Source: an uncultured Lachnospiraceae bacterium
GTDB taxonomy: Bacteria > Bacillota > Clostridia > Lachnospirales > Lachnospiraceae
Assembly: GCA_902761225.1 (NCBI GenBank)
Contig: CACWJQ010000011.1
Span: 1-64,000, forward strand
Reading direction: 5' to 3'
DNA length: 64,000 nucleotides
Below, piece after piece: positions 18,450 through 63,952 of the stretch. Position 1 is the stretch's first letter; the number at the start of each line of letters is the position of its first letter. Made by a program: the position numbers and the translations under genes. The notes under the pieces were generated by a model. That model was not told where the DNA came from. It made no database searches and was given only the letters and a program-made list of their open reading frames with translations.

Positions 18450-19778
18450 ATGAAGAAAAATGATAAATCCACAATTAAAGAGAGGGATGCTGAAGCGTTT
18501 GATATCGAGGATCTTGATGCTGAAGTTTCTGATATATCTGCGAAGTCTGATGATAAGAACATGGATAACCCTGGGGATTCTCTCGAAGATGGTGACATCA
18601 TAGATATTGACGACTATCTCGAAAATGACAGATCTTCAGAGAAGGATAAGGCCGGATCAGAGGAGCTTAAGAGGTATAAGGCGAAGAGAAGAAAGGGCGC
18701 CATGCTCTACCGCATCTTCCTGCTTTCATGGATCTCTGCACTTCTTATAGTCATCGGATCGCTCTTAGGGAAATTCTATGATTATCTCGATAAGTATGAA
18801 ACGGATTATCGTGCATCCAGGCCTGAAGTGATCACAGAGGATCTGATGATGCTGTACAGAACCGGTGATATATCAGGGATATACGATAAGCTTACTCAAA
18901 AGCCCGCTGTAGGCGAATACGAAACGGAGAGTGAGCTTCTTGAGTATCTGCGTCCTCTGCTTGAACAGGGGCCTGTTTCTTTTACTCAGGACAGGGCGGA
19001 GAGCACGGAAGAGCATCCCGTGTTCCTGATAAGTTCCGGAGATAAGGTCATCTCAAGGGCAGAGTATCAGATGGTTCCCAAACTCAGCGATGACGATATT
19101 CCCAGGTGGGAACTTGCCTATCTTGATCTTCCCGCAGAGCCCGGGATATCCGTTGATGTGATATCACCTGCGAATATCTCTGTTTATATTAATGGGAAGA
19201 TCATGCCGGACACCAGCATTATATCAGCCGAAGAGGAAGCTCCGGTTCAGAAATATTTCCTTGAGTTCGAGGAGATCCCTCCCATGGTGGAGCACAGCTA
19301 TATGGGACTGTATCTTGAACCGAAGGTTACAGCGAAGGATCCTGATGGAAATGATGTCCCTATCCTTTATGACAGTTCAGTTAACAGATATGTCGTGGAC
19401 TATCCGAGAGATTGCCCTGACAGAGAAGAGCTGGAGGCCTACGCTTCCAGGGTTGTTGCATCATACGCCAGCTTTGTATCGGGGGACCTTGCAGAGAGCG
19501 AACTCAGGAAGTATTTTACACCCGACAATATTTTCCTCTACTACATGACTCACGCGGGACTTACCTATTTTACAAGGCATCTGGCAGAGGAGATACACAG
19601 CACGGAAGTGCTGGACTTTATCCGCTACACAGACGATTCATTCTATTGCGAAGTTAAGGTGGAGCAGTACCTTACCATGGAGTGGGGACCCCGAGAACCG
19701 GAGGTGCTGATCACCGATGGAAAATTCTATTTCGTTAAGCTCAATGACGAGTGGAAAGTCAGCGGGATAGAGTTCTGA
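18450..19778 (+). CDS. Uncharacterised single-pass membrane protein with acidic N-terminus
   Basis: 442 aa. Residues 1-75 are highly acidic and cytoplasmic, followed by a basic stretch (RYKAKRRKGAM) and one helix (about 82-105). The rest is extracellular; it begins with a short coiled segment and ends in a fold resembling small NTF2-like domains (YASFVSGDLAESELRKYF to NDEWKVSGIEF). No catalytic motif was recognised. The start is uncertain: neither this ATG nor the GTG at 18438 has a clear ribosome site. It is likely co-transcribed with the glycosidase-like gene and probably serves the cell envelope. It ends 1 bp from the convergent regulator. Confidence 0.6.
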   Translation: MKKNDKSTIKERDAEAFDIEDLDAEVSDISAKSDDKNMDNPGDSLEDGDIIDIDDYLENDRSSEKDKAGSEELKRYKAKRRKGAMLYRIFLLSWISALLIVIGSLLGKFYDYLDKYETDYRASRPEVITEDLMMLYRTGDISGIYDKLTQKPAVGEYETESELLEYLRPLLEQGPVSFTQDRAESTEEHPVFLISSGDKVISRAEYQMVPKLSDDDIPRWELAYLDLPAEPGISVDVISPANISVYINGKIMPDTSIISAEEEAPVQKYFLEFEEIPPMVEHSYMGLYLEPKVTAKDPDGNDVPILYDSSVNRYVVDYPRDCPDREELEAYASRVVASYASFVSGDLAESELRKYFTPDNIFLYYMTHAGLTYFTRHLAEEIHSTEVLDFIRYTDDSFYCEVKVEQYLTMEWGPREPEVLITDGKFYFVKLNDEWKVSGIEF

Positions 19779-19779
19779 G

Positions 19780-20469
19780 TTAATCGTAAGGTTCGTAGAT
19801 ATATCGTTTTATTCTTCTGTCGTAATGTATCGGAAAGCCTGCGCGTGTCAGGGTTTCGAAATCTCTCTGTCTTGTTCTTTCACTTGAATACGGGAAGATT
19901 GAGTAGTACTCAGCTTTCAAATCTGTGATATCCGGCAGTTCCGGTTTATCAGGGGCTTCATCAATAGTGTATTTCTCCGGATCTTCCTTCATCAATTCGT
20001 GAATGTAGAAATGATACATTTCAAGGTCATAGAGATATTCCGACACCGCTTCTGTGTCTGTCGGAGTAAGCGAGAAGATCAGAGTGCCAAGCCTGTACAG
20101 CCGTGTCAGGTGCTGATGCCTGCGTGCGCTTATCATTTCATCTTCGTTTCTGTTTCCGCCTTTTCTTTTATCCGCAGCGTTCTTTTTGGTATATCTTTTT
20201 TTGAATCTTCCCGATTTCTTTTCTACAGTGTTGGCCGATTGATCAGAGCTGATTTCAGTACTGCTCTCATCGTTGAGGATATAGTTATCATGCTTCCTGT
20301 CGTATTTCAGTTTCAGCAGGCCGCTTTCTCTCAGGTCATCAAGGTCGCGGTGAAGAGTTCTTTTAGATATCCCGAAACGTCTGATGAGTTCCGAAGGACC
20401 GTGGTATTCGGTCATTCTGATATTGAAGTATATATTCAACTGTCTCAGTATTTTCTCTTTATTGCTCAA
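19780..20469 (-). CDS. DeoR/HTH_11-like transcriptional regulator with two HTH-like segments
   Basis: 229 aa, TTG start with AAGGGA 7 nt upstream. An N-terminal winged HTH (about 1-62) has the recognition helix SKRTLHRDLDDL. A basic, low-complexity linker (about 70-110) follows. Near the C-terminus SERTRQRDFETLTRAGFPI repeats the HTH pattern typical of WYL/DeoR regulators, so the protein may hold two DNA-binding heads with a helical bundle between. No ligand domain is recognised. It is divergent from the AAA+ gene at 20589, whose control is its most likely task. Confidence 0.7.
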   Translation of the reverse strand: MSNKEKILRQLNIYFNIRMTEYHGPSELIRRFGISKRTLHRDLDDLRESGLLKLKYDRKHDNYILNDESSTEISSDQSANTVEKKSGRFKKRYTKKNAADKRKGGNRNEDEMISARRHQHLTRLYRLGTLIFSLTPTDTEAVSEYLYDLEMYHFYIHELMKEDPEKYTIDEAPDKPELPDITDLKAEYYSIFPYSSERTRQRDFETLTRAGFPIHYDRRIKRYIYEPYD

Positions 20470-20543
20470 TTTTCATCCCTTCATACCCTGATTTTATCAC
20501 CTTTTTAAGGTTTTCGCCACCAAGATGGCACTCTGCGTTTTTC

Positions 20544-20568
20544 GCGTGTTGTATATTTTCCATACACG
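20544..20568. promoter_or_regulatory. Possible operator between regulator and AAA+ gene
   Basis: Inverted arms CGTGT and ACACG enclose TATATT, a -10-like box for the + strand gene, within the 119-bp divergent gap. Short arms make this a weak call. Confidence 0.3.
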
Positions 20569-20588
20569 AAGAAACAGGAGGTGCGAAC

Positions 20589-22652
20589 ATGATCTTTTAT
20601 GAATATAAGATTTTATTCCGGGACAGGGATATAAAGGGGGATGGGCTTGTAAGACACCTGTCAGTGGATCCGCAGTCGGAAAACTTTGAGAAGGAATTCT
20701 GCAGCGTGATCGAAAGAGCTAATAAGAGCATGAAGAATCTTGGAAGGGATGGCAATACGATCATCGCTCAGATCTATAGTGCAATACCCGGTGAACTTTT
20801 CATTGTTATGGCATGTAGTGATACCTGTAACGGAGGAACGGACTGCACTGAAATGGTCTGCAGATATCTTGAAAAAAATTATGCCATTGAAGTGATAGAA
20901 GTGACAGATGTGTCAGAAATCTCAGCACAGGATTTTTCTGACAGGATAGAAAAGGGAAATGATGAAGGTTTCATAGCAAGGTGGAGGAACTTCGATATCC
21001 AGGTGGATTACTTTAACAATAATGACTTCAATCTCTATGAGATCATTCCCGAAAAGAAAAACCTCACAAAGGATGAAGCACTGAACAGGGCAGCAGAACT
21101 CATGGGGGATAAGAGCCTGATTGAAGAGATAGAAAGGATATATTCACCGGATAATCAGAAAGGCTTTTTCGGGATACCCGTGCATTATAAGCTTTCCGTG
21201 ACATGCAGGGATGCGGCAAAGGGAATGATAGAACTGCTTGTCGGAGCACTGATGACAAACGGAAGACTGATCGGATCGAGGATCAACTATCTGTCGGATA
21301 TCACCGAGAACTGCTTTAATGATCATGATGTTGAAAAAATCTTCAAGTATGGTGAAGGAACTGTTCTCGCAATAGAGATGGCAGGAGATGAAGAAGATCA
21401 CGGAAGCTATGCATCATCATATCAGAAGGTTATGGAGTTCTATGAAAAACTGATACTAAAGCATCAGATGAAAACCCTATGCATATTCGTCGACCTGTCC
21501 GGGAAGGAGGGATTTGGCGGTGCCATGGTCAATAAGATGGCAGAGGCTCTTGATATTATCGATATCCGTGAAGGATGCGGCGGAAGAAATGAGGCGGTGC
21601 AGTATTTTCTCTACAGAGCCTTGAGGGATGGGAATGAGATTGAAGAAAAGAAAGTACGGTCCCTGTTCTCCGAGCGTAAGCAGTACACCGCAGGAGAGGT
21701 TGATGAGAAGTATTCTGAGTGGGTGAGAAGCGGGTTGAAAGACAGGATCTACAGAGCCTACAGGGAATGTTCAACCGTAAGTGTTGACAAGGCAGTCACG
21801 GTGAATGAGCCCTATCAGGAACTTCAGAACATGATCGGACTTGATGAGATCAAGAAGGTGGTGGATGAGATTGTTGATGCTGCAGCTGTCAGAAAGCTCA
21901 GGAGCAAAATGGGACTCGACAGCACGGATGCATCACTTCATATGATCTTCACCGGTAATCCCGGAAGTGCCAAGACAACCGTTGCAAGGCTTGTGGCTCA
22001 GATTCTCAAGAAAGAGGGAGTACTGGAGAGCGGACATCTTGTTGAATGCGGAAGAGCGGAACTTGTCGGAAAGTATGTCGGATGGACAGCGAAGAATGTA
22101 TGCAGGTATTTCAGGATGGCAAGAGGTGGAGTGCTTTTTATCGATGAGGCATACTCGCTTGTTGATGACAGTCATTCCTTCGGTGATGAAGCAATCAACA
22201 CGATAGTTCAGGAGATGGAGAATCACAGAAATGACACTGTAGTGATTTTTGCCGGATATCCGGATAAGATGGAAGACTTCCTTGCAAGAAATGAAGGGCT
22301 CAGGAGCAGGATAGCATTTCATCTTGAATTTCCGGATTATGACGGTGATGAACTGTACAGGATCCTCGAACTCATGGTTCATAAAAGAGGTCTGAAGCTT
22401 GGAAAGGGTGCGGAAGATGTGTGCAGGGAGATCCTTGATGGAGCATGCAGTGTTCCGGATTTCGGAAACGGCAGGTATGTCCGCAATCTGATTGAGAAGG
22501 CACAGATGAGCCAGTCACACAGGATAGTCAGGGAATATAAGGGAAAGAAGATCGGAAAGACGGTTGTGAAGACCCTGATGCCTGAAGACTTTGAACCCGG
22601 TGAGGTCAGGACGAAGAAACCTGAGAAGAGGCAGATAGGATTCTGGGTGTAG
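20589..22652 (+). CDS. CbxX/CfxQ (SpoVK)-type AAA+ ATPase with degenerate first domain
   Basis: 687 aa. The C-terminal third is a complete AAA+ module of the CbxX/CfxQ family: Walker A TGNPGSAKTTVARL (near residue 457), LVGKYVGWTAKNV pore-side loop, Walker B GVLFIDEAYSL, sensor region VIFAGYPDKMEDF and an Arg-finger zone NEGLRSRIAFHLEF. Residues about 180-350 (GIPVHYKLSV onward) look like a second AAA fold that has lost its Walker A. The first 150 residues are unique. Relatives act as remodelling chaperones; the substrate here is unknown. AACAGGAGG site. Heads a run with two uncharacterised genes. Confidence 0.82.
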   Translation: MIFYEYKILFRDRDIKGDGLVRHLSVDPQSENFEKEFCSVIERANKSMKNLGRDGNTIIAQIYSAIPGELFIVMACSDTCNGGTDCTEMVCRYLEKNYAIEVIEVTDVSEISAQDFSDRIEKGNDEGFIARWRNFDIQVDYFNNNDFNLYEIIPEKKNLTKDEALNRAAELMGDKSLIEEIERIYSPDNQKGFFGIPVHYKLSVTCRDAAKGMIELLVGALMTNGRLIGSRINYLSDITENCFNDHDVEKIFKYGEGTVLAIEMAGDEEDHGSYASSYQKVMEFYEKLILKHQMKTLCIFVDLSGKEGFGGAMVNKMAEALDIIDIREGCGGRNEAVQYFLYRALRDGNEIEEKKVRSLFSERKQYTAGEVDEKYSEWVRSGLKDRIYRAYRECSTVSVDKAVTVNEPYQELQNMIGLDEIKKVVDEIVDAAAVRKLRSKMGLDSTDASLHMIFTGNPGSAKTTVARLVAQILKKEGVLESGHLVECGRAELVGKYVGWTAKNVCRYFRMARGGVLFIDEAYSLVDDSHSFGDEAINTIVQEMENHRNDTVVIFAGYPDKMEDFLARNEGLRSRIAFHLEFPDYDGDELYRILELMVHKRGLKLGKGAEDVCREILDGACSVPDFGNGRYVRNLIEKAQMSQSHRIVREYKGKKIGKTVVKTLMPEDFEPGEVRTKKPEKRQIGFWV

Positions 22653-22766
22653 ATGGTATGTGCTGTCGGGGACATGGATAAATCGGAGAGACAGACAAGA
22701 GATATCGGATTCCGGGTTTGACCTGTATGGTATCAGAGAATAAAATTATGATATATGGCATGCGGT

Positions 22767-22790
22767 TCAGGACCTGCAGAAGTGTCCTGA
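22767..22790. repeat. Inverted repeat before the 22808 gene
   Basis: TCAGGAC and GTCCTGA, perfect 7-bp arms 10 bp apart, directly before the ribosome site of the next gene. It could be an RNA hairpin limiting translation or a protein site. Confidence 0.4.
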
Positions 22791-22807
22791 GATGATTGGA
22801 GACGGAT

Positions 22808-23527
22808 ATGGCTGATAAGATTGAGATACTTTACGAATCGGATCTGTGGGATAAGAGCGGAGAGTGTGAACTGCTGTTTCTTGCCTTTGACGGTGACCAC
22901 CTGTATGGCAGGGAAAAGTATGAAGGCAGGAGTATGAAGATACGTGTAGCTCCAAGGAAGTTCAGGCGTTATTCCGTTAAGGATACGGATCAGTGCAGAA
23001 TGGTTTATTTCAGCACGAAGAAAGGCTATCACATCTGGAATCTCATATGGGAAGAGAAAGATGACGAGAATGTAATTGATACAGAGAAATGGCTTGCCTT
23101 TGCAAGAACCCGTCTTGACGCTGCAGGAGACTATCCGATTTCGAAAGAACTCATAGAGAACCTGTCCGGGGTAAGCGGAAGATTTGTCTTTGGCACGGAA
23201 GGCTGTATTATCCACAGAGATATAAGCGGCGGTGACTGGGGACAGGATGAGCTTGTTATCTGTTACAGCGGATCGAATGTATCGATGGGTTCAGGGAAAG
23301 TATTCAGGATCCGCATTGACAGTCACACGAACCTGACTGAGCAGATGGAGAAACTGATGCCCTCGCTGCGAGGCAATAAATGGAATGAAGAGATGATCAG
23401 AGATCTTGTTAAGACCCTCGATACATACGATTCCGACACATATATAGACATGACCAATGCAAGCGGGAACTTCTCACGCCTGCAGATAAGAATGGATGGA
23501 GGAAAAATCACAGAGGCCTTAAGATAA
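22808..23527 (+). CDS. Uncharacterised protein
   Basis: 239 aa, not recognised. No signal peptide, membrane helix or catalytic motif is visible; beta-rich throughout, with an aromatic N-terminal half (FRRYSVKDTD, GYHIWNLIWEE) and a C-terminal segment describing a helical pair plus SRLQIRMDGG. The start was placed at the ATG behind TTGGAG; an in-frame ATG at 22796 is possible. It lies 155 bp after the AAA+ gene and 34 bp before the next gene, all on one strand, so it may be a partner or substrate of the ATPase. Confidence 0.6.
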   Translation: MADKIEILYESDLWDKSGECELLFLAFDGDHLYGREKYEGRSMKIRVAPRKFRRYSVKDTDQCRMVYFSTKKGYHIWNLIWEEKDDENVIDTEKWLAFARTRLDAAGDYPISKELIENLSGVSGRFVFGTEGCIIHRDISGGDWGQDELVICYSGSNVSMGSGKVFRIRIDSHTNLTEQMEKLMPSLRGNKWNEEMIRDLVKTLDTYDSDTYIDMTNASGNFSRLQIRMDGGKITEALR

Positions 23528-23561
23528 TGTGATAACCTGACGATAAAGAAGGAGCGGACTT

Positions 23562-24326
23562 ATGAAATACCAATATCCTTTTGGCGAATATGTTCACAGA
23601 CTGGTCCAGCAGGATCAGACGCCTAAGAAGGTGTTTGTCCTTGGAGTATATGCAAGTGCTGTGCATGCAAGATGGGAAAAGGATGGAAAGACTATCTGCA
23701 ATGCACTTGCTGTTGCAAGTGAACCGAAGATCTTCTGGGATGGAAATCAGGAAGAAGCAAGGAGCATAATTGACAGGATCAGGATTCCTGAGGAACTTGG
23801 CAGGCTTGTACCTACAGATAAGGATCTTAACGGTCCTTCTGCAAGAGTACTGGATGAGGATATTCTGAAGCCACTCGGATTTACCCGTGATGATGCATGG
23901 CTTTGCGACTGCCTTCCCGAGACCAGACTGAATGGCAATCAGCAGAGAACCATAGCGAAGAATTATGAACCGCTCATAAAGAAGTATGGACTTAATCCTG
24001 TTACGGTTCCTGACAGGCCATATCTGTTCTGCGACTGTAAGAGGGCGAAGGAGATAACTGAGGAATTGAAGAAATCCCAGGCAGAACTTCTTGTTCTTTT
24101 GGGAGACGTTCCCATCTGCCAGTATCTGAGACGTGTATGTAAAGTGCCGTACAGATACCTTCGTGAGTATTCTGATATGTATGGATATGGAAAAGCAACT
24201 CCTGTGATCATAGATGGAAGAGAAATTCATGTGCTGCCTCTTGCTCACCCCCGCCAGATCGGAGCGCTTGGACGGAGCAGTAGGAAGTGGTTTGATATTC
24301 ATCATGACTGGGAAAAAATTTTGTGA
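23562..24326 (+). CDS. Uracil-DNA glycosylase-superfamily-like protein
   Basis: 254 aa. The N-terminal KKVFVLGVYASAVHARW resembles UDG motif 1 (GxxP-type loop) and the C-terminal LPLAHPRQIGALGRSS resembles motif 2 (HPS-type loop), separated by the usual distance. Between them, ILKPLGFTRDDAWLCDCLPE fits the family's core. These enzymes excise damaged bases, but the key Asp/Asn of motif 1 is not obvious, so it may bind rather than cut. AAGGAGCGG site. Several Cys (CDCLPE, FCDCKRA) could hold a metal or cluster. Last gene of the AAA+ block. Confidence 0.5.
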   Translation: MKYQYPFGEYVHRLVQQDQTPKKVFVLGVYASAVHARWEKDGKTICNALAVASEPKIFWDGNQEEARSIIDRIRIPEELGRLVPTDKDLNGPSARVLDEDILKPLGFTRDDAWLCDCLPETRLNGNQQRTIAKNYEPLIKKYGLNPVTVPDRPYLFCDCKRAKEITEELKKSQAELLVLLGDVPICQYLRRVCKVPYRYLREYSDMYGYGKATPVIIDGREIHVLPLAHPRQIGALGRSSRKWFDIHHDWEKIL

Positions 24327-24332
24327 AATCTG

Positions 24333-24361
24333 TTGACATGATCGTCATGTCGGGATATACT
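24333..24361 (+). promoter_or_regulatory. Strong promoter with built-in palindromic operator
   Basis: TTGACA (24333-24338), 17 bp, TATACT (24356-24361). The spacer and -35 together form the palindrome GACATGA-TCG-TCATGTC (24335-24351). Such placement is typical of a repressor-controlled promoter. It begins 7 bp after the stop of the preceding gene. Confidence 0.7.
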
Positions 24362-24367
24362 TCACAC

Positions 24368-24471
24368 ACAACAGAAAAATAAGCTGATCCAAGAGGGACC
24401 GGTATTTAGATAATCGATTTTGGGCTAGAAGTCTACCCATTTATCGAAAATCTAAATACCGGTCCCTTTTT
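24368..24471 (+). ncRNA. Small RNA candidate made almost entirely of one long hairpin
   Basis: Between the promoter at 24333 and the T-run at 24467 lies about 100 nt with no ORF. Arms GGGACCGGTATTTAGAT (24395-24411) and ATCTAAATACCGGTCCC (24450-24466) pair perfectly over 17 bp. Inside, TCGAT/ATCGA, TGGG/CCCA and TAG/CTA continue the stem up to a 4-nt loop. The five T after it make it also a terminator. It may be a regulatory RNA or an elaborate terminator for the upstream genes; the dedicated promoter favours the former. Confidence 0.5.
24450..24471 (+). terminator. Terminator arm and T-run of the long hairpin
   Basis: The 3' arm of the 17-bp stem ends in GGTCCC and runs into TTTTT, stopping transcription before the structured leader of the next operon. 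Confidence 0.75.
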
Positions 24472-24485
24472 GCGTTCATTTGTTC

Positions 24486-24600
24486 GGAACGGTCAGTTCC
24501 TTGACAACTGAATATCGCTCTCCCGCCCGGGCGACAGCCGGGGAAGCACAGCCATGACCCGCATTCAGCGGCGAGCGTGCCAAGGCTGGTGGCGGGAGAG
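24486..24600 (+). promoter_or_regulatory. GC-rich structured leader upstream of the second AAA+ gene
   Basis: A small hairpin GGAAC/GTTCC (24486-24500) precedes a closed element: CTCTCCCGCC (24518-24527) pairs with GGCGGGAGAG (24591-24600) over 10 perfect bp. Inside are CAGCC/GGCTG (24549-24553 with 24584-24588) and CCGC-ATTCA-GCGG (24559-24571). GCAC (24546-24549) and GTGC (24577-24580) could form a competing or pseudoknot pairing. The element is clearly richer in G+C than its surroundings and ends 45 bp before the start codon. A 5'-UTR regulatory RNA is the best reading; no known riboswitch class matched. Confidence 0.5.
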
Positions 24601-24644
24601 GACGTACCCCATTAACCACCTAACATATGACAGGAGGTCAGCTT

Positions 24645-25664
24645 ATGGAAAATAACAACATTCATGTCGTTCAGAGATATGTCCCCTGGTATTCCGATGA
24701 TTACAGGATCTCTTCCCGCTCTACGGTATCAGGCTCTCATAACTATCTTGCTCTTACCCCTGTGCAGATCAGGGATGAGCTTCTGAAGGCTGTTATCGAT
24801 CAGGATGATGCATGCAAGAAAGTTGCAATGATGGTATATCAGCATCTTCACGGTCACCGCTTTGTCGGAATGCTCGCAGGCCCCACCGGTTCCGGCAAGT
24901 CCTTTATCGCTGAGAAGCTGAAGGATATGTTCCCCGAACTTGTATATATCAGGGATGTTTCCAATGTCACCTGTGATGGCTGGTCCGGCGGAAAGAAGGT
25001 CTCAACACTCTTTTCCGATGTGCCTGTTCCTGACAGGAATTCCGGTCGCATTCAGCCCATCATCTTCCTTGACGAGTGTGACAAGCTCTTCTCCCCGAAG
25101 ATAAACAGCGGTCGGGAGAATGTCAGTGAAACCGTGCAGGCAGAATTCCTCACGGTCATCCACGGCGGAGAACTCAGGGTTCCTGATTCCGATATAGACA
25201 GAAGATTCTCTACCATCGATACCTCAGGAATCAGCTTCATGTTCGCAGGTGCATTCGAGAAAACGGCAGGACAGATTGCTGAAAATGAATCCGGTCCTAT
25301 GCTCGGCTTTGGTTCGAGTCTTTCCAAGGCTAAGTCCTATGACAGGGAACTTACGATGGAAGACATCCACGAGGCAGGCTGCATCAACGAACTCTGCGGC
25401 AGGATCCACAGACTTGTGAACCTTAATCCTTTCTCTGAAGAAGCTTTCCGCAAGATCCTTGATGATCATGTAAAGGGCCCTGTGCATGAACTTGAGGAAG
25501 AGTTCGGAATGCCGATAATCATCAGCAGTGAGCGCTGTGATGAAATTGCTCATAAGGCCTACTCAAGCGGTCTCGGTATCCGCGGTATGAAAAATTCCAT
25601 CCGCGAATATATCTATGACATGATGTGGAGCGACAGCCGCCTCAAGACATTCGAGATTGCCTGA
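24645..25664 (+). CDS. ClpX-like AAA+ ATPase
   Basis: 339 aa. Walker A LAGPTGSGKSFIAEKL (near residue 78), Walker B PIIFLDECDKLF, sensor 1 in FMFAGAFEKT and a C-terminal small domain ending SSGLGIRGMKNSIREYI follow the plan of ClpX/HslU-type unfoldases, but there is no zinc-binding N-domain and the first 40 residues are unlike ClpX. The IGF-type peptidase-docking loop of ClpX was not seen. It is thus probably a stand-alone remodelling ATPase of an accessory system. AGGAGG lies 8 nt before this ATG. The two small and large unknown genes behind it run on the same strand. Confidence 0.75.
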   Translation: MENNNIHVVQRYVPWYSDDYRISSRSTVSGSHNYLALTPVQIRDELLKAVIDQDDACKKVAMMVYQHLHGHRFVGMLAGPTGSGKSFIAEKLKDMFPELVYIRDVSNVTCDGWSGGKKVSTLFSDVPVPDRNSGRIQPIIFLDECDKLFSPKINSGRENVSETVQAEFLTVIHGGELRVPDSDIDRRFSTIDTSGISFMFAGAFEKTAGQIAENESGPMLGFGSSLSKAKSYDRELTMEDIHEAGCINELCGRIHRLVNLNPFSEEAFRKILDDHVKGPVHELEEEFGMPIIISSERCDEIAHKAYSSGLGIRGMKNSIREYIYDMMWSDSRLKTFEIA

Positions 25665-25761
25665 ACGTGACCATATGACTTGCCACCATCGTCCGACAGC
25701 CTGATTCAGAGAACCAATGCAACTCAACAATTAACACTACCCTTTAAAGGAGGACATGCTC

Positions 25762-26091
25762 ATGATGCATCTTGAATACAAAAAGAACAGCTACCTTGGA
25801 ACCCACATCCACATCCAGCCTGATCACGAAAGCGATGTGCCCAGGCTCAGGGAAGTGGTTATGAACAACCTGAACATCAAGAATCCCACAGTAAGCTTTG
25901 CACTTAAGATGAATGCCGGAGAATTTGATGGTATCCCCGAAAAAGCTGTTGCTGCCGAAGCGGAAGTTGCGAATATCCTGTCCGAGCTGTGGGACGATCA
26001 GTACAGTATGAATGTCCTGATGCTCCTTGCAAGAGCCATGCAGGAGATCGTTGATCTGAAGTTGAAGGACAGCGATACATACAGATCGTGA
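25762..26091 (+). CDS. Uncharacterised small protein
   Basis: 109 aa, not recognised. An N-terminal beta part (LGTHIHIQPDHESD) is followed by two or three helices, the last with LLARAMQEIVDLKLKD. No membrane helix or cysteine pair. AAAGGAGGA sits 8 nt before this ATG; an earlier in-frame ATG (25756) is too close to it. It lies between the ClpX-like ATPase and a 640-residue coiled-coil protein, suggesting an adaptor or subunit of the same system; that role is inferred from position only. Confidence 0.65.
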   Translation: MMHLEYKKNSYLGTHIHIQPDHESDVPRLREVVMNNLNIKNPTVSFALKMNAGEFDGIPEKAVAAEAEVANILSELWDDQYSMNVLMLLARAMQEIVDLKLKDSDTYRS

Positions 26092-26191
26092 AGCAGCTTT
26101 GTTCGTAAAAATCCCGAAAAAATGTTAAAATTAAAAATAGTTCTGCTCAGAAAATTTATGAACAGAACCTTATGCTACAGGAGGACGGATC

Positions 26192-28114
26192 ATGCAGCCG
26201 AGAAAACTCAGATTACAGAAAAATGAAGACATTTACAGATCAATTCTGGACGTATATCCTTCGGAAGGTTTAAGCGTTACGCACTGTCAGAAGAAGCTGG
26301 TATTCTATGTCCTCGGATGGCTTAAGAACAAGCTTGAAGGTGAAAAGACAGGCTGTTCCAATGATGAATTCCTGGCGCAGATAACGGATGTACCGGTCAT
26401 AAAGAAAAGCAACAAGATCCTTGCACCGGAAGTGTACGATTCATACGATCTTACCAAAACAAACGGCATAGGCGCTGACAATGTAATGCACCCTCATCTG
26501 GCCTATTATGAGAAAGAATCTAAATGGGCCATGGAACTCAGCGAGATTGCCATCAGCGAGGGACGTGATTCCACATTCCGTACTGCGATAGCGGTATATC
26601 CCGAGGATGATCATGTGGTCATGGCAATCAAGTGTACTGCAGGTTACGATACCGGCAATGACATGTACATCCCCGGTTATCGTCCGCAGTTTGTAAGGGA
26701 TGCCATATGGGATGATGAACTTGCCGTAACCGAACATGGCATCGATAAGGCTTATGCTTTTGGCAGATATGCAATAGAAGTAAATGGAAAGAGCGATATG
26801 GCCTGCGAGGAATTCAGAAAGGGCCTTCTCTTTAATGAAAACAGAAAGCTCCCAGTGCTGCTGATATCAGAGGATGAAGCAGCTGAACTGATAGCCACCA
26901 CGGAGCGCGATGATATAATCGACAGGATTGCGTACTCGAGTGTCGGATTCTGTCACGTTATTCAGGTTCAGAAAAGCGTCAGAAAGCTTCTTGCAGAACA
27001 TGGCAAGGAGTACATGGATCATATTCTTCAGGGTGAGGTTGCGTTTTTAGGTCAGACTCCCATGTATTTCACCAGAGAAGAGTATGCCGAAAAGTTTGCG
27101 TTTGATAGTGAGAGGAATTACTTCTGCGGAACATTCTCTGAGGACAGGGATCTGGAACTCCGCAGATGCGATATAAGATACGATAGTGATATCTTCTTCA
27201 GGGATGTCTTCTTCCAGGAAAAAATTAACAGACTTACGGGTGATGCCGCTACCATCGAAGATCTCAGGAGCGCCTTGGCACAGTGCAGGGAAGAACTGGA
27301 GGAAACCAAGAGGGATCTTAAGTTCTGCGAGATTCTGCGCGATGAAGACTGGCATGAATGTCAGCTCGATATAGAAGATCTGAATGAGAAAATAAAGAAG
27401 CTCGAGGACGAGAACGGAAAACTTTCCAGGCGCATCGAAAGCCTGGAGAACAGCCAGAACGATAAGAGCAGCGACGTCTTCCAAAAGAGATGTGATGAAC
27501 TCGAAAAAGAAAATGCAGAACTTAAGAAAAGAAGCAGCGGCTCCACATTCAAACAGTTCTATGATCGTCATGAGGCTCTTTTTGATATGCCAATCACAAA
27601 TTCTGCTGATGATATACTCAGCTGGATTGAGGAGTATTATTCGGACTGCCTGATCGTACATGAAAAGGCTAAGAGGAGCCTTTCGGACTGTACCTGGAGG
27701 GTTGATTCGGATTCGTACCACAATCTGTACTACATGATCCATTATCTCGCAGGATATACGAGATATGTAAACAGCGAGGAAATTGACCAGAAGGACTGGG
27801 AGAAACTGCAGGAGGAATACAGAACCATCCTGTCAGGAGTAGAAATGGCTCCTGTCGGTGATGCTACCAGCAAGTACAAGGATCAGTACACCATCAATAT
27901 CTCATCCTACTATAATGATGCAATCGCTAAGGGGATTGTGGACGAAAAGAAGCGCAAGGATGCGGTTGTACTCGACAAGCACCTCAAGAGAGGCGTAGGT
28001 GCAAGGGACGAGGAAGGCCTGATCAGGATCTACTATTATTACGACAGGGATCTGAAGAAGACATTCATCGGGTATATGCCGGGACATCTGTCTACCATAA
28101 CAGGTGGAAGATGA
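26192..28114 (+). CDS. Uncharacterised coiled-coil protein of the ClpX-like ATPase cluster
   Basis: 640 aa, not recognised as a whole. Residues about 1-340 are a globular domain (LRLQKNEDIYRSIL, AVYPEDDHVVMAIKCTAG, ISEDEAAELIATTERDD). Residues about 350-455 are a long coiled coil rich in Glu, Lys and Leu. A helical domain follows, and the last 60 residues (LIRIYYYYDRDLKKTFIGYMPGHL) are reminiscent of small RelE/HigB-like toxin folds, a weak resemblance. No membrane helix. ACAGGAGG site. The operon ends at the terminator at 28166. A sensor or scaffold with a C-terminal effector is possible. Confidence 0.6.
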   Translation: MQPRKLRLQKNEDIYRSILDVYPSEGLSVTHCQKKLVFYVLGWLKNKLEGEKTGCSNDEFLAQITDVPVIKKSNKILAPEVYDSYDLTKTNGIGADNVMHPHLAYYEKESKWAMELSEIAISEGRDSTFRTAIAVYPEDDHVVMAIKCTAGYDTGNDMYIPGYRPQFVRDAIWDDELAVTEHGIDKAYAFGRYAIEVNGKSDMACEEFRKGLLFNENRKLPVLLISEDEAAELIATTERDDIIDRIAYSSVGFCHVIQVQKSVRKLLAEHGKEYMDHILQGEVAFLGQTPMYFTREEYAEKFAFDSERNYFCGTFSEDRDLELRRCDIRYDSDIFFRDVFFQEKINRLTGDAATIEDLRSALAQCREELEETKRDLKFCEILRDEDWHECQLDIEDLNEKIKKLEDENGKLSRRIESLENSQNDKSSDVFQKRCDELEKENAELKKRSSGSTFKQFYDRHEALFDMPITNSADDILSWIEEYYSDCLIVHEKAKRSLSDCTWRVDSDSYHNLYYMIHYLAGYTRYVNSEEIDQKDWEKLQEEYRTILSGVEMAPVGDATSKYKDQYTINISSYYNDAIAKGIVDEKKRKDAVVLDKHLKRGVGARDEEGLIRIYYYYDRDLKKTFIGYMPGHLSTITGGR

Positions 28115-28165
28115 TCCTGAATATCCGCAGATAAAACAGCATACTTATCCCGAAGGGGAATTTGG

Positions 28166-28197
28166 AAAACACGACGCCAATTCAGCGTCGTGTTTTT
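28166..28197 (+). terminator. Intrinsic terminator of the ClpX-like ATPase cluster
   Basis: AACACGACGC and GCGTCGTGTT form a perfect 10-bp stem with a 7-nt loop, followed by TTTTT. Its tail TTTTTGCGTTC is identical to that after the hairpin ending at 24466. Confidence 0.9.
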
Positions 28198-28349
28198 GCG
28201 TTCGTAGTAAGATTGATCCACACCCGAAAACGGGCCACTGCGGAAACCGTTAACAACAGTTTATAAGGAGGAAAGCAAGCCTCTTCTTGAAAGTAAACTA
28301 ATGTTGAACAATAATTCGATATATTGATTTGTTGAAGCAACAATTAAAT

Positions 28350-28373
28350 AATTATTGTAATGATACAATAATT
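28350..28373. repeat. AT-rich inverted repeat
   Basis: AATTATTGT and ACAATAATT, perfect 9-bp arms 6 bp apart, in a markedly AT-rich stretch (about 28300-28400) at the edge of a decayed gene. No promoter or gene function can be assigned. Confidence 0.45.
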
Positions 28374-28457
28374 TTCCATGTCGTTTCAATGTATCATTTC
28401 AGATTCAGAGAAAGGAAAAAGAATTGTAATTATTCCTATGGATCATATAATGGGCAA

Positions 28458-28799
28458 AAGGGTGGTAGCGAGAGCATACGCAATATGCTAAAATACATGC
28501 AGGATAGCAAGGAAAGTTCGGCAGTGGACGATGCTACCAAAGAACTCGATAAATACGTCAGTAATGTGCGCCGGAATCCGGAGGTGAGGGGTAATTATAT
28601 GACATTCGGGGATAGAATAGATTGGGAAAAAGAATTGAGCCGTAAAGAGGGCCGAGAAGAAGGTCGAGAAGAAGGCCATGTTGATGTGATAGAAGACATG
28701 CTGAAAAATGGAAAAACAGTTGAAATGATCGCTGAATTCTGCAATTATCCGGTTGAATATGTACGCAAGATAGAAGAACAGATGAAAGCAAACGTTTAA
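28458..28799 (+). pseudogene. Remnant of an Rpn-family recombination-promoting nuclease
   Basis: About 110 codons match the C-terminal tail of Rpn/PD-(D/E)XK transposase-like proteins: TKELDKYVSNVRRNPEVRG, YMTFGDRIDWEKE, then the charged repeat GREEGREEG and a closing helix pair (MIAEFCNYPVEYVRKIEE). The catalytic N-terminal nuclease domain is absent; the in-frame sequence before it (from 28329) is AT-rich and unlike any protein. No ribosome site is visible. It is most likely a truncated copy left by recombination. Confidence 0.65.
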
Positions 28800-28944: not shown

Positions 28945-31920
28945 ATGTTAGACAACCTTCGTAACGGATTCGAAACCGCATATATTGATGGAACAGCAGT
29001 TTCTAACGAATCTTTAAGACCTCAATTTATATCTAACAATAACAAAGAAGGCAAAAAGGTTATTTCATCCATCGAAGATGAACTGTTGGCATGCGATGAA
29101 TTCAGGATCAGTGTTGCCTTTATAACGCTGGGAGGAATCACACCTCTATTGCAGACTCTTAAGGAACTTGAAAATCGTGGTATTCCCGGTCAGATTCTTA
29201 CAACCAATTATCTTAACTTCAGCGAGCCCAAGGCACTCGATAAGCTTAATTCTCTTAAGAATATCACACTCAGGATTTTTGACTCTGAAGCTTCGGGTGA
29301 GGGATTTCATACAAAGGGATATATCTTCCGAAAAGAAGAGATATACAGAATCATTATCGGCAGTTCCAATATGACCGGTGGTGCTCTGAAGAAGAACTAT
29401 GAATGGAATACCAAAATAGTATCCACCTCGAATGGCGAGATGACCAGGAACATCATAGATGAATATGAGAGACTCTGGAATTCACAGTATTCAGTTGTCT
29501 ATAAGGATTTCATCGATGATTACCGGGTACGTTATGAAATAATAAAGCATCAGCGGGAGATTGCTCAGAAGGAAGAACTGGTTTCGCTTGAGAAATATAA
29601 GCTCCGGCCCAACAGCATGCAGGTTGGATTTATTTCTAATCTTCGAAAGATCGTAAATGAAGGAAATAACAGAGCTCTCCTGATTTCAGCAACAGGTACC
29701 GGAAAAACATATGCATCTGCATTTGCGATGAGAGAACTCGGATTCAAGAAGGTGCTGTTCCTTGTACACAGAGGTCAGCTTGCCAGACAGTCTAAGAAGT
29801 CCTATGAGAAGGTGTTTGACAGATCGGTATCTATGGGATTGGTCGGTGCCGGATACAGTGATTATAATGCGGACTTCATCTTTGCAACAGTACAGACATT
29901 AAGCCGGGATGATCATCTTTTCGAATTTGCCCCGGATCATTTTGACGCAATATGTCTTGACGAAGCTCATCACGTACCGGCTGATACTTACCAGAAAATA
30001 ATGAAGCATTTCACACCCAAACTATGGCTTGGTATGACTGCAACACCTGATAAGCGTGATGATAACATAGAGGGTAGAAATGTTTATGAGATCTTTGATC
30101 ATCAGATAGCTTATGAGATCAGACTTCAGCAGGCAATGGAAGAGAATCTTCTCTGTCCTTTTCATTACTTCGGACTGACTGATCTTTCTATCATCGGTGA
30201 TGATAAGGATCGTGATTTCAGTGTCCTTACATGTGATGAAAGAGTAAGACACATAGTAGAACAGGCGTCTTACTACGGATTCTGCGGTGACAGGGTGAAG
30301 GGACTTATTTTCTGCAGCAGTATAAAAGAATCAGAGACTCTTTCTGACAAACTGAATCATACGATTAATCCATCTACAGGAAAGTATTACAGAACTATAG
30401 CACTTAACGGTAATGCATCTGAAGAAAAGAGAGCTGAAGCTTTTGAGAGATTGGCAGCGGATGATAATGAACATGATACTCCCGAGGAGTATTCATCTCA
30501 TTTGGATTACATCCTTTCTGTTGAGATATTGAATGAGGGTGTTGATATCATAGAAGTGAATCAGGTTATTATGCTTCGCCCCACACAGTCACCTATTGTT
30601 TTTATACAGCAGCTGGGAAGAGGATTGCGTAAGGCCGATGGTAAAGACTATGTTGTGATTCTTGATTTTATAGGGAATTACAACAATAACTTTATGATAC
30701 CGATTGCGCTTTCAGGTGATCGTACATACAACAAAGATAATATCAGACGATTTGTGATGGAAGGTGGAAGGGTTATTCCCGGAGTTTCCACCATACATTT
30801 CGATGAGATCAGCAGGAAGAAAATATTCTCTGCTGTTGACAATGCTAATTTCAGCGATATCAAGCTGATAAAAGAGAACTATACAACATTAAAGAATAAG
30901 CTGGGGAGAATACCGGCGCTCAGAGACTTTGACGAATATGGAGAGATGGATGTGCTCAGGATATTCGATAACGGAAGTCTCGGATCATACTACAAATTCC
31001 TTGTGAAATATGAAAAAGAATACAAAGTAAGATTATCTGCCAGGGAAGAACAGATAGTTGAGTTTGTCTCTAAGAAACTTGCAAGCGGAAAGAGAATTCA
31101 GGAATTAAGGTTGTTAAAGAGAATACTCGCATATGCAAGAGGTTTCTCTGTGATGGGGCTGTTTGCGGGACTTAAAAAGGATATGAGTGATGAGGGCAGA
31201 AAACTCAGCGATAAGCAGAAACGCAACATCATTAATATAATGACCAATGAGTTTTCTTCCGGATCCGGAAAGAAGACTTATTCGGACTGTGTTTTCATAG
31301 AACCCAAAGCTGAGGACTATGTTCCGGCAGCTTCCCTGCTTGAGTGCCTGTCCAATAAAGATTTTTATGATATCCTCTCTGAACTTGTGGATTTCGGTAT
31401 AAGCAGGAACGAACGGGATTATTCCGACCTGTATGACAACACTGATTTTGTTCTGTATCAGAAGTATACTTACGAAGATGTATGCAGATTGCTTAACTGG
31501 GAAACTAACGAAGTTCCACTGAATATAGGCGGTTATAAATACGATAAGAAGACCAGGACATTTCCGGTGTTTATCAATTATGACAAAGCTGATGATATAA
31601 CTGACACCACGAAATACGAGGATCACTTTACCAGTACCGGATCCCTGATCGCTATTTCAAAATCCGGAAGAAGCCTTGATTCGGAAGATGTACAGAATTT
31701 TCTAAAATCAGATGAGCGTGGTATAAGTGTTGAGCTGTTTGTCAGGAAAAATAAAGATGATAAAATATCGAAAGAATTCTATTATCTCGGACATATGAAG
31801 GCCAGCGGTAATGCAAGAGAATTTGTTATGAATAATACCGATAAGACGGCTGTTGAAATCGAGTGGATGCTGGATGTGCCCGTGAGAGAAGATATATACC
31901 AATACATAGTTAATACCTGA
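28945..31920 (+). CDS. PLD-helicase-DUF3427 protein (superfamily II), probable defence enzyme
   Basis: 991 aa. An N-terminal phospholipase D-like nuclease domain (about 30-190) has the HxK motif GFHTKGYIF (H122, K124) and IIIGSSNMT. Superfamily II helicase motifs follow: Walker A SATGTGKTYA (249-255), DEAH box CLDEAHHVPA (339-342), GMTATP, and motif VI QQLGRGLRKADG. The last 300 residues match the DUF3427 plan. This fusion is typical of restriction-like defence islands. Start by GGGAGA. The gene looks more AT-rich than its neighbours, a sign of transfer. A NUDIX gene follows after 10 bp. Confidence 0.85.
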   Translation: MLDNLRNGFETAYIDGTAVSNESLRPQFISNNNKEGKKVISSIEDELLACDEFRISVAFITLGGITPLLQTLKELENRGIPGQILTTNYLNFSEPKALDKLNSLKNITLRIFDSEASGEGFHTKGYIFRKEEIYRIIIGSSNMTGGALKKNYEWNTKIVSTSNGEMTRNIIDEYERLWNSQYSVVYKDFIDDYRVRYEIIKHQREIAQKEELVSLEKYKLRPNSMQVGFISNLRKIVNEGNNRALLISATGTGKTYASAFAMRELGFKKVLFLVHRGQLARQSKKSYEKVFDRSVSMGLVGAGYSDYNADFIFATVQTLSRDDHLFEFAPDHFDAICLDEAHHVPADTYQKIMKHFTPKLWLGMTATPDKRDDNIEGRNVYEIFDHQIAYEIRLQQAMEENLLCPFHYFGLTDLSIIGDDKDRDFSVLTCDERVRHIVEQASYYGFCGDRVKGLIFCSSIKESETLSDKLNHTINPSTGKYYRTIALNGNASEEKRAEAFERLAADDNEHDTPEEYSSHLDYILSVEILNEGVDIIEVNQVIMLRPTQSPIVFIQQLGRGLRKADGKDYVVILDFIGNYNNNFMIPIALSGDRTYNKDNIRRFVMEGGRVIPGVSTIHFDEISRKKIFSAVDNANFSDIKLIKENYTTLKNKLGRIPALRDFDEYGEMDVLRIFDNGSLGSYYKFLVKYEKEYKVRLSAREEQIVEFVSKKLASGKRIQELRLLKRILAYARGFSVMGLFAGLKKDMSDEGRKLSDKQKRNIINIMTNEFSSGSGKKTYSDCVFIEPKAEDYVPAASLLECLSNKDFYDILSELVDFGISRNERDYSDLYDNTDFVLYQKYTYEDVCRLLNWETNEVPLNIGGYKYDKKTRTFPVFINYDKADDITDTTKYEDHFTSTGSLIAISKSGRSLDSEDVQNFLKSDERGISVELFVRKNKDDKISKEFYYLGHMKASGNAREFVMNNTDKTAVEIEWMLDVPVREDIYQYIVNT

Positions 31921-62278: not shown

Positions 62279-63952
62279 TCAGTCCTTCTCCGGAACGATA
62301 TGAACCACTCCGATAGTACCGGAAAATGCGGGAGAGAAGATATGTTCTGTGAGGCCGTCCCTGATCTCACCTTCCCACTCGGCGTGAAGATGTCCTGCGA
62401 GGACATAGGCACAGTTGGAATCCTCTGAATAGATCATATCCAGATATTTCCACATGTCGCTGTCCGGATTGTAATTCTCGCTGTCAGGACTCCAGTAATA
62501 GATCTTATTGCGGACAAGCATTGACAGCTCTTCCAGCGAAGGATCTGTCTGAGAGTAGTAGGGCACATGTGTTGCCGCAATAACAGGAATACCAAGGTTA
62601 TAGATCCCGGTGAGGACTTTCATCTGTTCCTCGCCGGGTTTTTTGATGGAATTATTAACTCCGGCTATGATGAATTCTCCGAAATCGAGATATTTATGGG
62701 TATTGTCATCGCCGTCTATCCGTGCGTGCAGGTCGTGGGCTTTATAATCATCAAAGCCTGTGCTTCCGTCACTGTACCAGGTTCCGTAATCGTGGTCGGC
62801 ACGGATGTAGAGGACCCTGTTGGATGGATATCTGAGCCTGTCAAGGCCCTCAGTGAGTATGTTCATGTTGGAAGTACTGCAGTAATCCAGCAGGTCTCCG
62901 CCGAATATCACGGCGTCAAAATCATTATAGTTAAGATAATCTATGATCTCGGGCCACAGGTCCATACCGTGAACACCGTCCGGTGTAACGGACAGAGTCT
63001 CATATCGTGAAAGTACTGTCTCAAGGCTGCCCTCGTACACATCACCTGCTTCGAAGTCGGAAATGATATGAACATCGGATACCCATGCTATGGTGTATTC
63101 CCTGGTGACACCAGGCAGCTTAATATATACATCCTCTTCGGTAAAGTTATAATCCGGCGCTTCATATGTTATCTGAACGGGCTCCGGATCTGTTACATTC
63201 TGAGGATCCTCCGGTTCGGTGACTTCAGTATTTCCCTGTTCCGCATTCTCATCTTCATCCGTTACAGACATGCCGGTATTAGAGACTTCTGTGGGAAACT
63301 GCGGTACGGCATTGGGATCCGGAAGCACGAAAAAGAGAATGATCCCTGCGATCGTGAGTACGAGAAGTATGGCAGAGAGGATTATGGTGATCTCTCTGTC
63401 GTGATCCTTTTTCCTGGAACCTGACTTAGCTGCGGGAGCTTTAGCAGGTGCAGGAGCGGGCTCTTGCCTGGGCTCGGGCACTCTGCTGATCGCGGGTGCC
63501 TCGGGTTTCTTACCCGTGCTCTTGGGAAGCTCAGGCTTCTTACCATTGCTGACAGGCATCTCAGGCTTCTTGCCTGTGCTCTTAGGTAGTTCAGGCTTCT
63601 TACCGTTGCTGACGGGCAGTTCGGGCTTTTTACCTGTGCTCTTGGGAAGCTCAGGCTTCTTACCGTTGCTGACGGGCAGTTCAGGTTTCTTGCCCGTGCT
63701 CTTGGGAAACTCGGGTTTCTTACCGTTGCTGACAGGCAGTTCGGGCTTTTTACCTGTGCTCTTTGGAAGTTCGGGTTTCCTGCCGTTGCTGTGGGAAGGC
63801 ACAGGTTTCCTGCCTGTGCTAACGGGAACACCTGCATTTACTCCACGGGATGCGGGCTGTATTGTTTTATTGTTCTCCTGTACAGAAACAGCTCCGGCAG
63901 CCTGTGCTGCCGAAGCTGTTGTATCGCTTTTCTTTTTTTTCTTGGAAGACAT
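62279..63952 (-). CDS. Membrane-anchored calcineurin-like phosphoesterase with decapeptide repeats
   Basis: 557 aa. Lys-rich start, then about ten 10-residue repeats (KPELPKSTGK alternating with KPELPVSNGK, residues 49-158), a Pro/Ala linker, one helix (about 188-210) and an outer phosphoesterase domain (about 275-557): IAWVSDVHII, FGGDLLDYC, RADHDYGTW, ATHVPYY and LAGHLHAEWEG. In the third motif Asn is replaced by Asp (ADHD instead of GNHD), which may change metal binding. The repeats should lie in the cytoplasm. ATG overlaps the stop of an upstream gene (TAATG). Confidence 0.8.
   Translation of the reverse strand: MSSKKKKKSDTTASAAQAAGAVSVQENNKTIQPASRGVNAGVPVSTGRKPVPSHSNGRKPELPKSTGKKPELPVSNGKKPEFPKSTGKKPELPVSNGKKPELPKSTGKKPELPVSNGKKPELPKSTGKKPEMPVSNGKKPELPKSTGKKPEAPAISRVPEPRQEPAPAPAKAPAAKSGSRKKDHDREITIILSAILLVLTIAGIILFFVLPDPNAVPQFPTEVSNTGMSVTDEDENAEQGNTEVTEPEDPQNVTDPEPVQITYEAPDYNFTEEDVYIKLPGVTREYTIAWVSDVHIISDFEAGDVYEGSLETVLSRYETLSVTPDGVHGMDLWPEIIDYLNYNDFDAVIFGGDLLDYCSTSNMNILTEGLDRLRYPSNRVLYIRADHDYGTWYSDGSTGFDDYKAHDLHARIDGDDNTHKYLDFGEFIIAGVNNSIKKPGEEQMKVLTGIYNLGIPVIAATHVPYYSQTDPSLEELSMLVRNKIYYWSPDSENYNPDSDMWKYLDMIYSEDSNCAYVLAGHLHAEWEGEIRDGLTEHIFSPAFSGTIGVVHIVPEKD
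63479..63808 (-). repeat. Tandem 30-bp coding repeats (60-bp higher unit)
   Basis: Ten copies of a 30-bp unit in two alternating types encode the decapeptides of the phosphoesterase. The units are close but not identical at DNA level, with many third-base changes, so the amino-acid pattern appears selected. Such arrays gain and lose copies easily. Confidence 0.9.

Follow-up and report, generated by a model that had tools for sequence, protein, structure and literature searches.

A leader RNA preceded by a hairpin terminator, and the ClpX-like unfoldase gene behind it, in a mosaic AAA+/protease locus of a Lachnospiraceae bacterium

Is the group of AAA+ ATPase genes at positions 19780 to 28197 of contig CACWJQ010000011.1 (assembly GCA_902761225.1, an uncultured Lachnospiraceae bacterium) one system, or a composite of parts that also live apart? 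An earlier sequence-only reading of this DNA had proposed that six genes and an RNA element form one candidate new system, recalling those for stress or defence. In this study, the cluster was compared with related genomes; "the window" is the whole analysed stretch of 64,000 nucleotides (nt), and G and L numbers denote our genomes and loci. As a set of genes the cluster is a mosaic. In its variable slot lie a UDG-like gene and a module that stands by itself, made up of a promoter, a long hairpin terminator, a leader RNA and the genes of a ClpX-like protein and of p109, a protein of 109 amino acids (aa). Related bacteria have the leader RNA ahead of further genes for protein remodelling, for proteases and for mobile elements, and it may therefore be a new gene-control element. 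The parts of the module in the window are:

24333-24361, + strand: sigma-A-type promoter, TTGACA-17-TATACT
24395-24471 (hairpin 24395-24466), + strand: long hairpin with a T tract, an intrinsic terminator between promoter and leader
24496-24612, + strand: structured leader RNA with boxA-like GTTCCTTGACAACTGAATA at its start (122 bits with covariance model R1, of which it is a training sequence)
24627-25664, + strand: ClpX-like AAA+ unfoldase, by Pfam, NCBIfam and alignments; LGF loop kept
25762-26091, + strand: p109, partner of the ClpX-like protein by linkage

That the leader is a structured RNA is well supported by covariation among its relatives. The alignment had 13 rows, namely the five training leaders of model R1, the hits on the AAA+/ClpP side and L100, with 12 other rows left out. 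In this alignment 91.2% of the cells pair and two-sided changes occur in 18 of 22 pairs; the covariation score is 0.571 against 0.194 for shuffled alignments, and none of 500 shuffles was as good. The leader that the sequence-only reading had called structured is borne out in this way and not by the fold of the single sequence, which is no better than that of shuffles (z -0.28). Because the alignment was fitted to the model, helix P1 was tested separately, without alignment. Its mean was 7.5 Watson-Crick pairs with its own partner and 5.0 with the partners of other rows, and seven such pairs were reached in 9 of 13 own pairings as compared with 15 of 156 swapped ones. Row by row, 6 of 13 beat 95% of their own shuffles; for L101 and L102 nothing sets the true pairing apart. 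Rfam 15 gave no match above the gathering threshold in the window or in 20 leader loci, and the six matches that a lax threshold yielded in 24330-24640 were all far under the cut-off. Neither this leader RNA nor a system of ClpP and VirD4 was found in the open-access literature searched.

R1 was run over 250 genomes of the family; since scoring was confined in each genome to the 15 best candidates of a first look, its counts are lower bounds. It matched in 18 genomes, the window's own and 17 further ones, with 20 matches besides that of the window. Seven of these lead into ClpP/AAA+ operons (L076, L093, L077, L078, L079, L081 and L082), L076 being assigned by its 205-aa gene, which is related to the 196-aa gene found close behind ClpP-VirD4 in L019. 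Nine lead into genes of mobile-element type (L084-L089, L091, L092 and L095; relaxase, Rep, XRE and resolvase by eye) and four into other genes (L080, L083, L090 and L094), L090 being the boxA part alone. A second model, R2, was built from the 13 rows and run over 196 genomes of the order, of which seven matched, six besides the window. Its best match, from a different family (G170), has a promoter and hairpin upstream and, downstream, a ClpX-like gene of 319 aa, which a p109-like gene follows; the remaining five are beside genes of mobile-element type, as judged by eye. As a separate observation, a leader with an extended P4 hairpin lies beside XRE and Rep-like genes (by eye) at L085-L088, L092, L095 and L129 and is near-identical in several genomes. 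The L076 leader had no match among plasmids.

What, then, does the leader do? Its start is recognisable by eye in 12 of 13 rows, and it is named boxA-like because the pattern GTTCCTTGANAACT also matches the sequence just before 16S ribosomal RNA (rRNA, by Rfam) at L064 and L073, two of the seven loci scanned. The pattern occurs at 17 places in 10 of the 31 genomes of the genus; four are the leader itself and several others look unrelated. A possible pairing of boxA CCTTG with CAAGG of the core is complete in 8 of 13 rows. The core is compact and conserved, with internal loops GGGGAAG and CAAGG, a start codon follows soon after the leader, and in some genomes the module forms short two-gene operons. 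These features would suit a riboswitch-like or translational element that senses a ligand or protein and involves no processive antitermination. We consider such an element somewhat unlikely, though it deserves to be taken seriously: a start of the kind common to rRNA leaders and the presence of the same RNA before unrelated mobile-element-type genes speak for another role, and a sequestered ribosome-binding site was not noticed, no dedicated test for one having been made.

Upstream of the leader, the strong promoter and the hairpin RNA described before were both recovered. The promoter has the top score (11 of 12) among 16 promoter-like sites in 19700-28400, a number of sites that is itself at chance level (mean of shuffles 13.8), and the fold of 24366-24482 has a z of -9.1, with 0 of 200 shuffles as good. 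A promoter-like site lies upstream of 7 of 13 AAA+/ClpP-side leaders tested (window, G011, G007, L017, L096a, L101 and L102). For hairpins one rule served all leaders, namely a fold of -30 kcal/mol or lower that has a T tract and lies no more than 65 nt upstream. The AAA+/ClpP-side set comprised 14 leaders, L100 counted in and the near-identical G020 left out, and 13 of them are preceded by such a hairpin, L097 being the exception. The background is 26 of 657 places before open reading frames in 21 loci, some of which bear leaders themselves. Among 17 other leaders the rule picks out one (L137), and five of the 17 have weaker hairpins of -20 to -30 kcal/mol. From a promoter and terminator of this strength one would expect a distinct transcript of some 100 nt, and by eye several loci resemble one another in a short part of the upper stem; a small RNA acting in trans might therefore be made here, with the leader a separate element fed by weak read-through. 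We think this decidedly improbable, as the hairpin keeps its position ahead of the leader from locus to locus but differs greatly in sequence.

It is well supported that the module with its leader recurs where the backbone is absent, both at unrelated places and in a second family. In G011, G007 and L017 the 7-20 kb viewed contain the leader, the ClpX-like gene and the p109 gene, and none of the backbone genes. At L019 the order is ClpB-like, 273 aa, ClpP, VirD4-like, 204 aa, 284 aa, leader and 196 aa, then ClpX-like and p109. In the other family (L128/L134) the module was located by the RNA model alone; tblastn with the window's ClpX-like protein at E 0.01 did not reach these relatives, whose identity is about 26%, and profile comparison gave E 3.2e-24 for the ClpX-like and 2.4e-9 for the p109-like protein (L128). 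This pair is 42% (ClpX-like) and 29% (p109-like) identical to that of G501. In 8 of 8 aligned loci p109 is adjacent to the ClpX-like gene or one gene off. A close ClpX-like gene is present in 4 of 59 genomes searched, the window's own included: G000, G020 (100% identity), G011 (67%) and G007 (60%). So sporadic a distribution, with many leaders adjoining mobile-element-type genes, is what one would expect of ordinary accessory paralogues that recombination has joined to a generic terminator and a mobile-element leader, without any functional unit. This seems to us the least credible of the explanations considered, since the linkage of the ClpX-like gene to p109 persists at about 26% identity and, of the two cases that are most distant, L128 has the same RNA and L056 does not.

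The GPTGSGKS, FLDE, [LIM]GFG, GRI and SGLGIRG regions of the window-type proteins align with solved ClpX, with which they share an AAA+ core and a small domain. [LIM]GFG is kept in 8 of 8 aligned ClpX-like proteins and lines up with the ClpX loop of the solved structures, the loop by which ClpX docks on ClpP. There are also differences from ClpX. GYVG is replaced by GWSG in six and by SYRG or SYKG in two proteins; p109 is linked; identity to more distant ClpX-type matches is about 25-33%; and no N-terminal zinc-binding domain was detected with Pfam or NCBIfam, nor is one seen in any of the eight aligned proteins, the N-terminus being a short region of [RS]YIPWYSD type. The NCBIfam ClpX equivalog scored 107.9 bits where 359 are needed. 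Relatives also gave more remote ClpX-type matches, at 33% identity or less; these, one in G013 (L015, with no other cluster gene) included, were set aside as housekeeping ClpX or other AAA+ proteins. Sixty-eight plasmid records match the ClpX-like protein, all below 60% identity; among the 20 matches listed (24.9-28.5%), ten are annotated as ClpX and ten have no annotation under the match. A phage or plasmid origin was also considered and rejected, the ClpX-like, VirD4-like and UDG-like proteins and two RNA patterns being absent from viral_contigs; the 640-aa and UDG-like proteins had no match in the phages searched. The predicted structure of p109 has a predicted local distance difference test (pLDDT) score of 62.

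The other genes of the cluster and the sites that bound it are:

19780-20469, - strand: divergent DeoR/HTH_11-type regulator (Pfam HTH_11 1.9e-7), WYL-like (PADLOC WYL 2.4e-9)
20589-22652, + strand: CbxX/SpoVK-type AAA+ protein, 687 aa (Pfam AAA 8.8e-16, AAA_lid_6 3.7e-15)
22808-23527, + strand: backbone protein of 239 aa, 84% identical in G020 and 50% in G023
23562-24326, + strand: UDG-superfamily-like protein, 254 aa, from a weak PF03167 signal in family members
26192-28114, + strand: coiled-coil backbone protein, 640 aa; C-terminal part resembles PADLOC candidate HEC-07 (1.6e-16)
28169-28197, + strand: terminator seen in the sequence, stem-loop with T tract after the 640-aa gene
28265-28278, + strand: stranded ribosome-binding site and truncation point; identity to G020 stops at 28278, at the ClpP ATG
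28464-28799, + strand: C-terminal fragment of an Rpn-like gene (named by eye), right of the truncation, 90% to G020

All seven open reading frames, the divergent regulator and the CbxX-type ATPase among them, lie where they had been reported, as sequence and Pfam confirm. Annotation with Pfam, NCBIfam, PADLOC and PHROGs upheld a ClpX-like ATPase with unfamiliar partners that fit no named system. The profile searches suggested earlier for the 239-, 109- and 640-aa proteins, extended to the 254-aa protein, gave no family above curated cut-offs. For the 239-aa protein, queried from residue 2, there was nothing above cut-off in Pfam or NCBIfam and nothing at E 0.1 in PADLOC or PHROGs. Solved-structure searches with the VirD4-like, UDG-like, 640-aa and p109 proteins returned nothing convincing. 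The 640-aa protein is present in 3 of 31 genomes of the genus, the window's own included, and in 1 of 392 of the order, which is its own.

As compared at the sequence level, two relatives show a backbone of regulator, CbxX-type AAA+, 239-aa protein, variable slot, 640-aa protein, ClpP, VirD4-like ATPase and more. The entire cluster sits at the same place in G020, with the gene order of the window and a regulator 98% identical in nt, and continues there with ClpP, a VirD4/TraG-like ATPase, proteins of 238, 367, 370 and 1226 aa, and then 285 and 400 aa. The ATPase carries the domains of a type IV coupling protein (VirD4/TraG), T4SS-DNA_transf at 2.2e-43 and TraG-D_C at 3.1e-23; the 1226-aa protein has two AAA domains and an M41 peptidase. 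In G023 the order is regulator (59% aa identity), CbxX (77%), 239 aa (50%), 306 aa, a metallo-beta-lactamase-fold protein, 640 aa (67%), ClpP (78%), VirD4-like (72%) and further genes. Since the 306-aa and metallo-beta-lactamase-fold genes stand there in place of the UDG-like gene, RNA, ClpX-like gene and p109, the backbone has a variable slot. A reduced relative of the backbone was seen at L054 (G705:C12), with 367-like, 370-like, 209-, 223- and 1441-aa proteins, the last akin to the 1226-aa AAA/M41 protein.

In the window the copy is cut exactly at the ClpP start codon, which the sequence-only reading had no means of seeing: the gene is gone, its ribosome-binding site is kept, and homology to G020 restarts at 28464. 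As G023 too has ClpP at that place, loss in the window's lineage is the simpler reading. The closing terminator of the sequence-only reading is indeed there, and a stem-loop with T tract separates the 640-aa gene from clpP in both relatives; our terminator scan listed neither the closing stem-loop of the window nor the long hairpin. From the end of this terminator to where clpP would start (28197-28278) the promoter scan lists no promoter-like site, in keeping with read-through. In the window's genome the 1226-aa protein had partial matches alone, the best 40% over residues 793-1220.

Could all six genes and the RNA nevertheless be one anti-phage or stress system? The window and G020 share the gene order, and nt identity to G020 is 86.1-99.7% over the cluster parts and 71.0-78.2% over the three flanking genes tested, which points to exchange of the cluster between species. 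Next door (28945-31920) lies a gene for a PLD, helicase and DUF3427 protein that matches a type IV restriction enzyme of PADLOC at 1.7e-200. This neighbour gives the idea of a defence-type system a foothold; PADLOC otherwise yields part matches and no complete system. The likeness to HEC-07 is limited to the C-terminal part of the 640-aa protein, IetAS is represented by a partial IetA match (AAA part) with no IetS match among the cluster proteins, and for Dodola the ClpX-like protein matches DolB (9.3e-8) in two stretches, best in the C-terminal one, with no DolA match. The six genes do not travel together, contrary to what had been supposed: the module stands alone in G011, G007 and L017, the UDG-like gene occurs apart, and the slot of G023 has other genes. 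Because neighbourhoods differ in this way, with module, backbone and UDG-like gene found apart, a six-gene unit is rejected, and we give the idea of one system embracing the genes and the RNA very little credence.

We infer conditional termination, antitermination and a partnership with ClpP by analogy with canT, conAn, AlpA and ClpX. The elements canT of Tn916, conAn2 of pLS20, EAR and put of phage HK022 are described as processive antitermination elements, with a leader RNA in cis at the start of operons, in mobile elements, that have internal terminators (PMC11658703, PMC8955417). The window's leader is also in cis ahead of an operon (operons by eye) and conserved in structure. With about 115 nt and its boxA-like start, it is a candidate for such an RNA by architecture, and its presumed mechanism would count as a variant of processive antitermination. 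In the AlpA-controlled alp lysis genes of Pseudomonas aeruginosa, a promoter is followed by an intrinsic terminator directly before the genes, and an antiterminator gives relief (PMC7969949). The window likewise has a promoter and then a terminator ahead of its genes, whereas AlpA is a protein antiterminator on promoter DNA and the window has a leader RNA.

We read the locus in the window as a modular AAA+/protease locus whose copy here has undergone recombination and truncation. Its distinctive part is a self-standing cassette of strong promoter, long-stem terminator, boxA-like site, leader RNA, ClpX-type unfoldase and p109. Transcription would normally halt at the hairpin. When some trigger lets polymerase pass, boxA and leader would dress it by a recruitment of NusB/S10 type, and the dressed polymerase would read on across the operon, past the terminators within it. 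A hexamer of the ClpX-like protein would dock on ClpP via the LGF loop, with p109, as an adaptor or regulator, making up for the absent zinc-binding domain. Because the locus has lost its own clpP, a ClpP encoded elsewhere, for which no search was made, would have to serve in this strain. That conditional termination and a boxA leader control an accessory unfoldase acting with ClpP and p109 is a proposal we hold tentatively; it may well be correct, and we stop short of calling it probable.

Several observations weigh against this proposal. Its weakest point is the unusual order of terminator and then leader: as the hairpin comes first, the leader cannot relieve it in the usual order, and another factor would be needed. 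The leader RNA is not specific to proteases, given how its 20 matches divide among ClpP/AAA+, mobile-element-type and other genes, and a promoter-like site precedes no more than the 7 of 13 leaders named above. L097 has no hairpin and misses most of the boxA-like start. The diverged ClpX-like and p109-like pairs of G712 (L055) and G501 (L056) have no detectable leader. In G023 no leader was found within the 17 kb fetched, although the same terminator precedes clpP, and no VirD4-like match was found in the window's genome (a 93% complete assembly). The locus provides a strongly covarying RNA missing from Rfam 15, an opportunity to test clearly for boxA-type control outside rRNA, and an unfoldase and partner whose linkage is kept across two bacterial families. 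If the antitermination reading is true, these bacteria would have a further processive antitermination RNA, and gene control of mobile elements would be tied to accessory proteolysis.

Two kinds of gene behind the leader elsewhere speak for the proposal, namely ClpP-VirD4 genes and certain CbxX-type fusions. Leaders precede ClpP-VirD4 genes at L096 and L097, and ClpP and a VirD4-like ATPase are side by side in ten loci (L011, L019, L029, L049-L053, L096 and L097; one gene apart in L052), possibly as a protease-motor pair. Some of these loci have kinase-like, DnaK-like (both by eye) or AAA+ neighbours, and in L049 (G011:C4:139942-141216) one in-frame TGA lies inside the VirD4-like match. In four genera CbxX-type proteins stand behind the leader, and all four carry the RNA polymerase alpha C-terminal domain (alpha-CTD; E 2e-18 to 3e-21):

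L098:11095-13326, L099:7843-9681, L101:8228-10123 and L102:7369-9159, behind the leader RNA: CbxX-type AAA+ fused to the RNA polymerase alpha C-terminal domain

This fusion sets them apart from CbxX/CbbX, SpoVK and EccA. The window's CbxX-type protein shares the AAA and lid_6 architecture of that group (NCBIfam spore_V_K 7.7e-81, under cut-off at 271 of 423 bits) and differs by its own N-terminal part, 400 residues of no known domain; Pfam found no alpha-CTD in it. No fusion of alpha-CTD with AAA+ was seen in the genus among 23 alpha-CTD matches in 22 of 31 genomes, most of them RpoA-like in frame length, with frames of 417 aa (G022) and 396 aa (G018) left uninspected. A bolder suggestion is that the leader represents a new regulatory RNA class, a terminator-gated boxA leader common to mobile elements and scattered AAA+/ClpP modules, in which alpha-CTD-AAA+ partners would remodel transcribing RNA polymerase and couple antitermination to accessory proteolysis. 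We regard it as unlikely, but not far-fetched.

The 254-aa protein of the slot had been called UDG-like, and that label stands only weakly, at the level of sequence. PF03167, of the uracil-DNA glycosylase superfamily, matches two of four family members at E up to 5, the best at 0.0015, and not the window protein, which has no Pfam match at E 0.1; its predicted structure is of low confidence (pLDDT 33.5). The gene appears to be independently mobile, being found without other cluster genes in the fetched stretches of G563 and Variovorax. Four records of Variovorax plasmids, about 0.8 Mb in size, encode a protein 49% identical to the window's (L142), and in the one plasmid inspected it adjoins a DUF87 ATPase. 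Far from the cluster, at 62279-63952 on the - strand, the window encodes a 557-aa protein with repeated KPELPKSTGKKPELPVSNG units that is metallophosphatase-like by eye.

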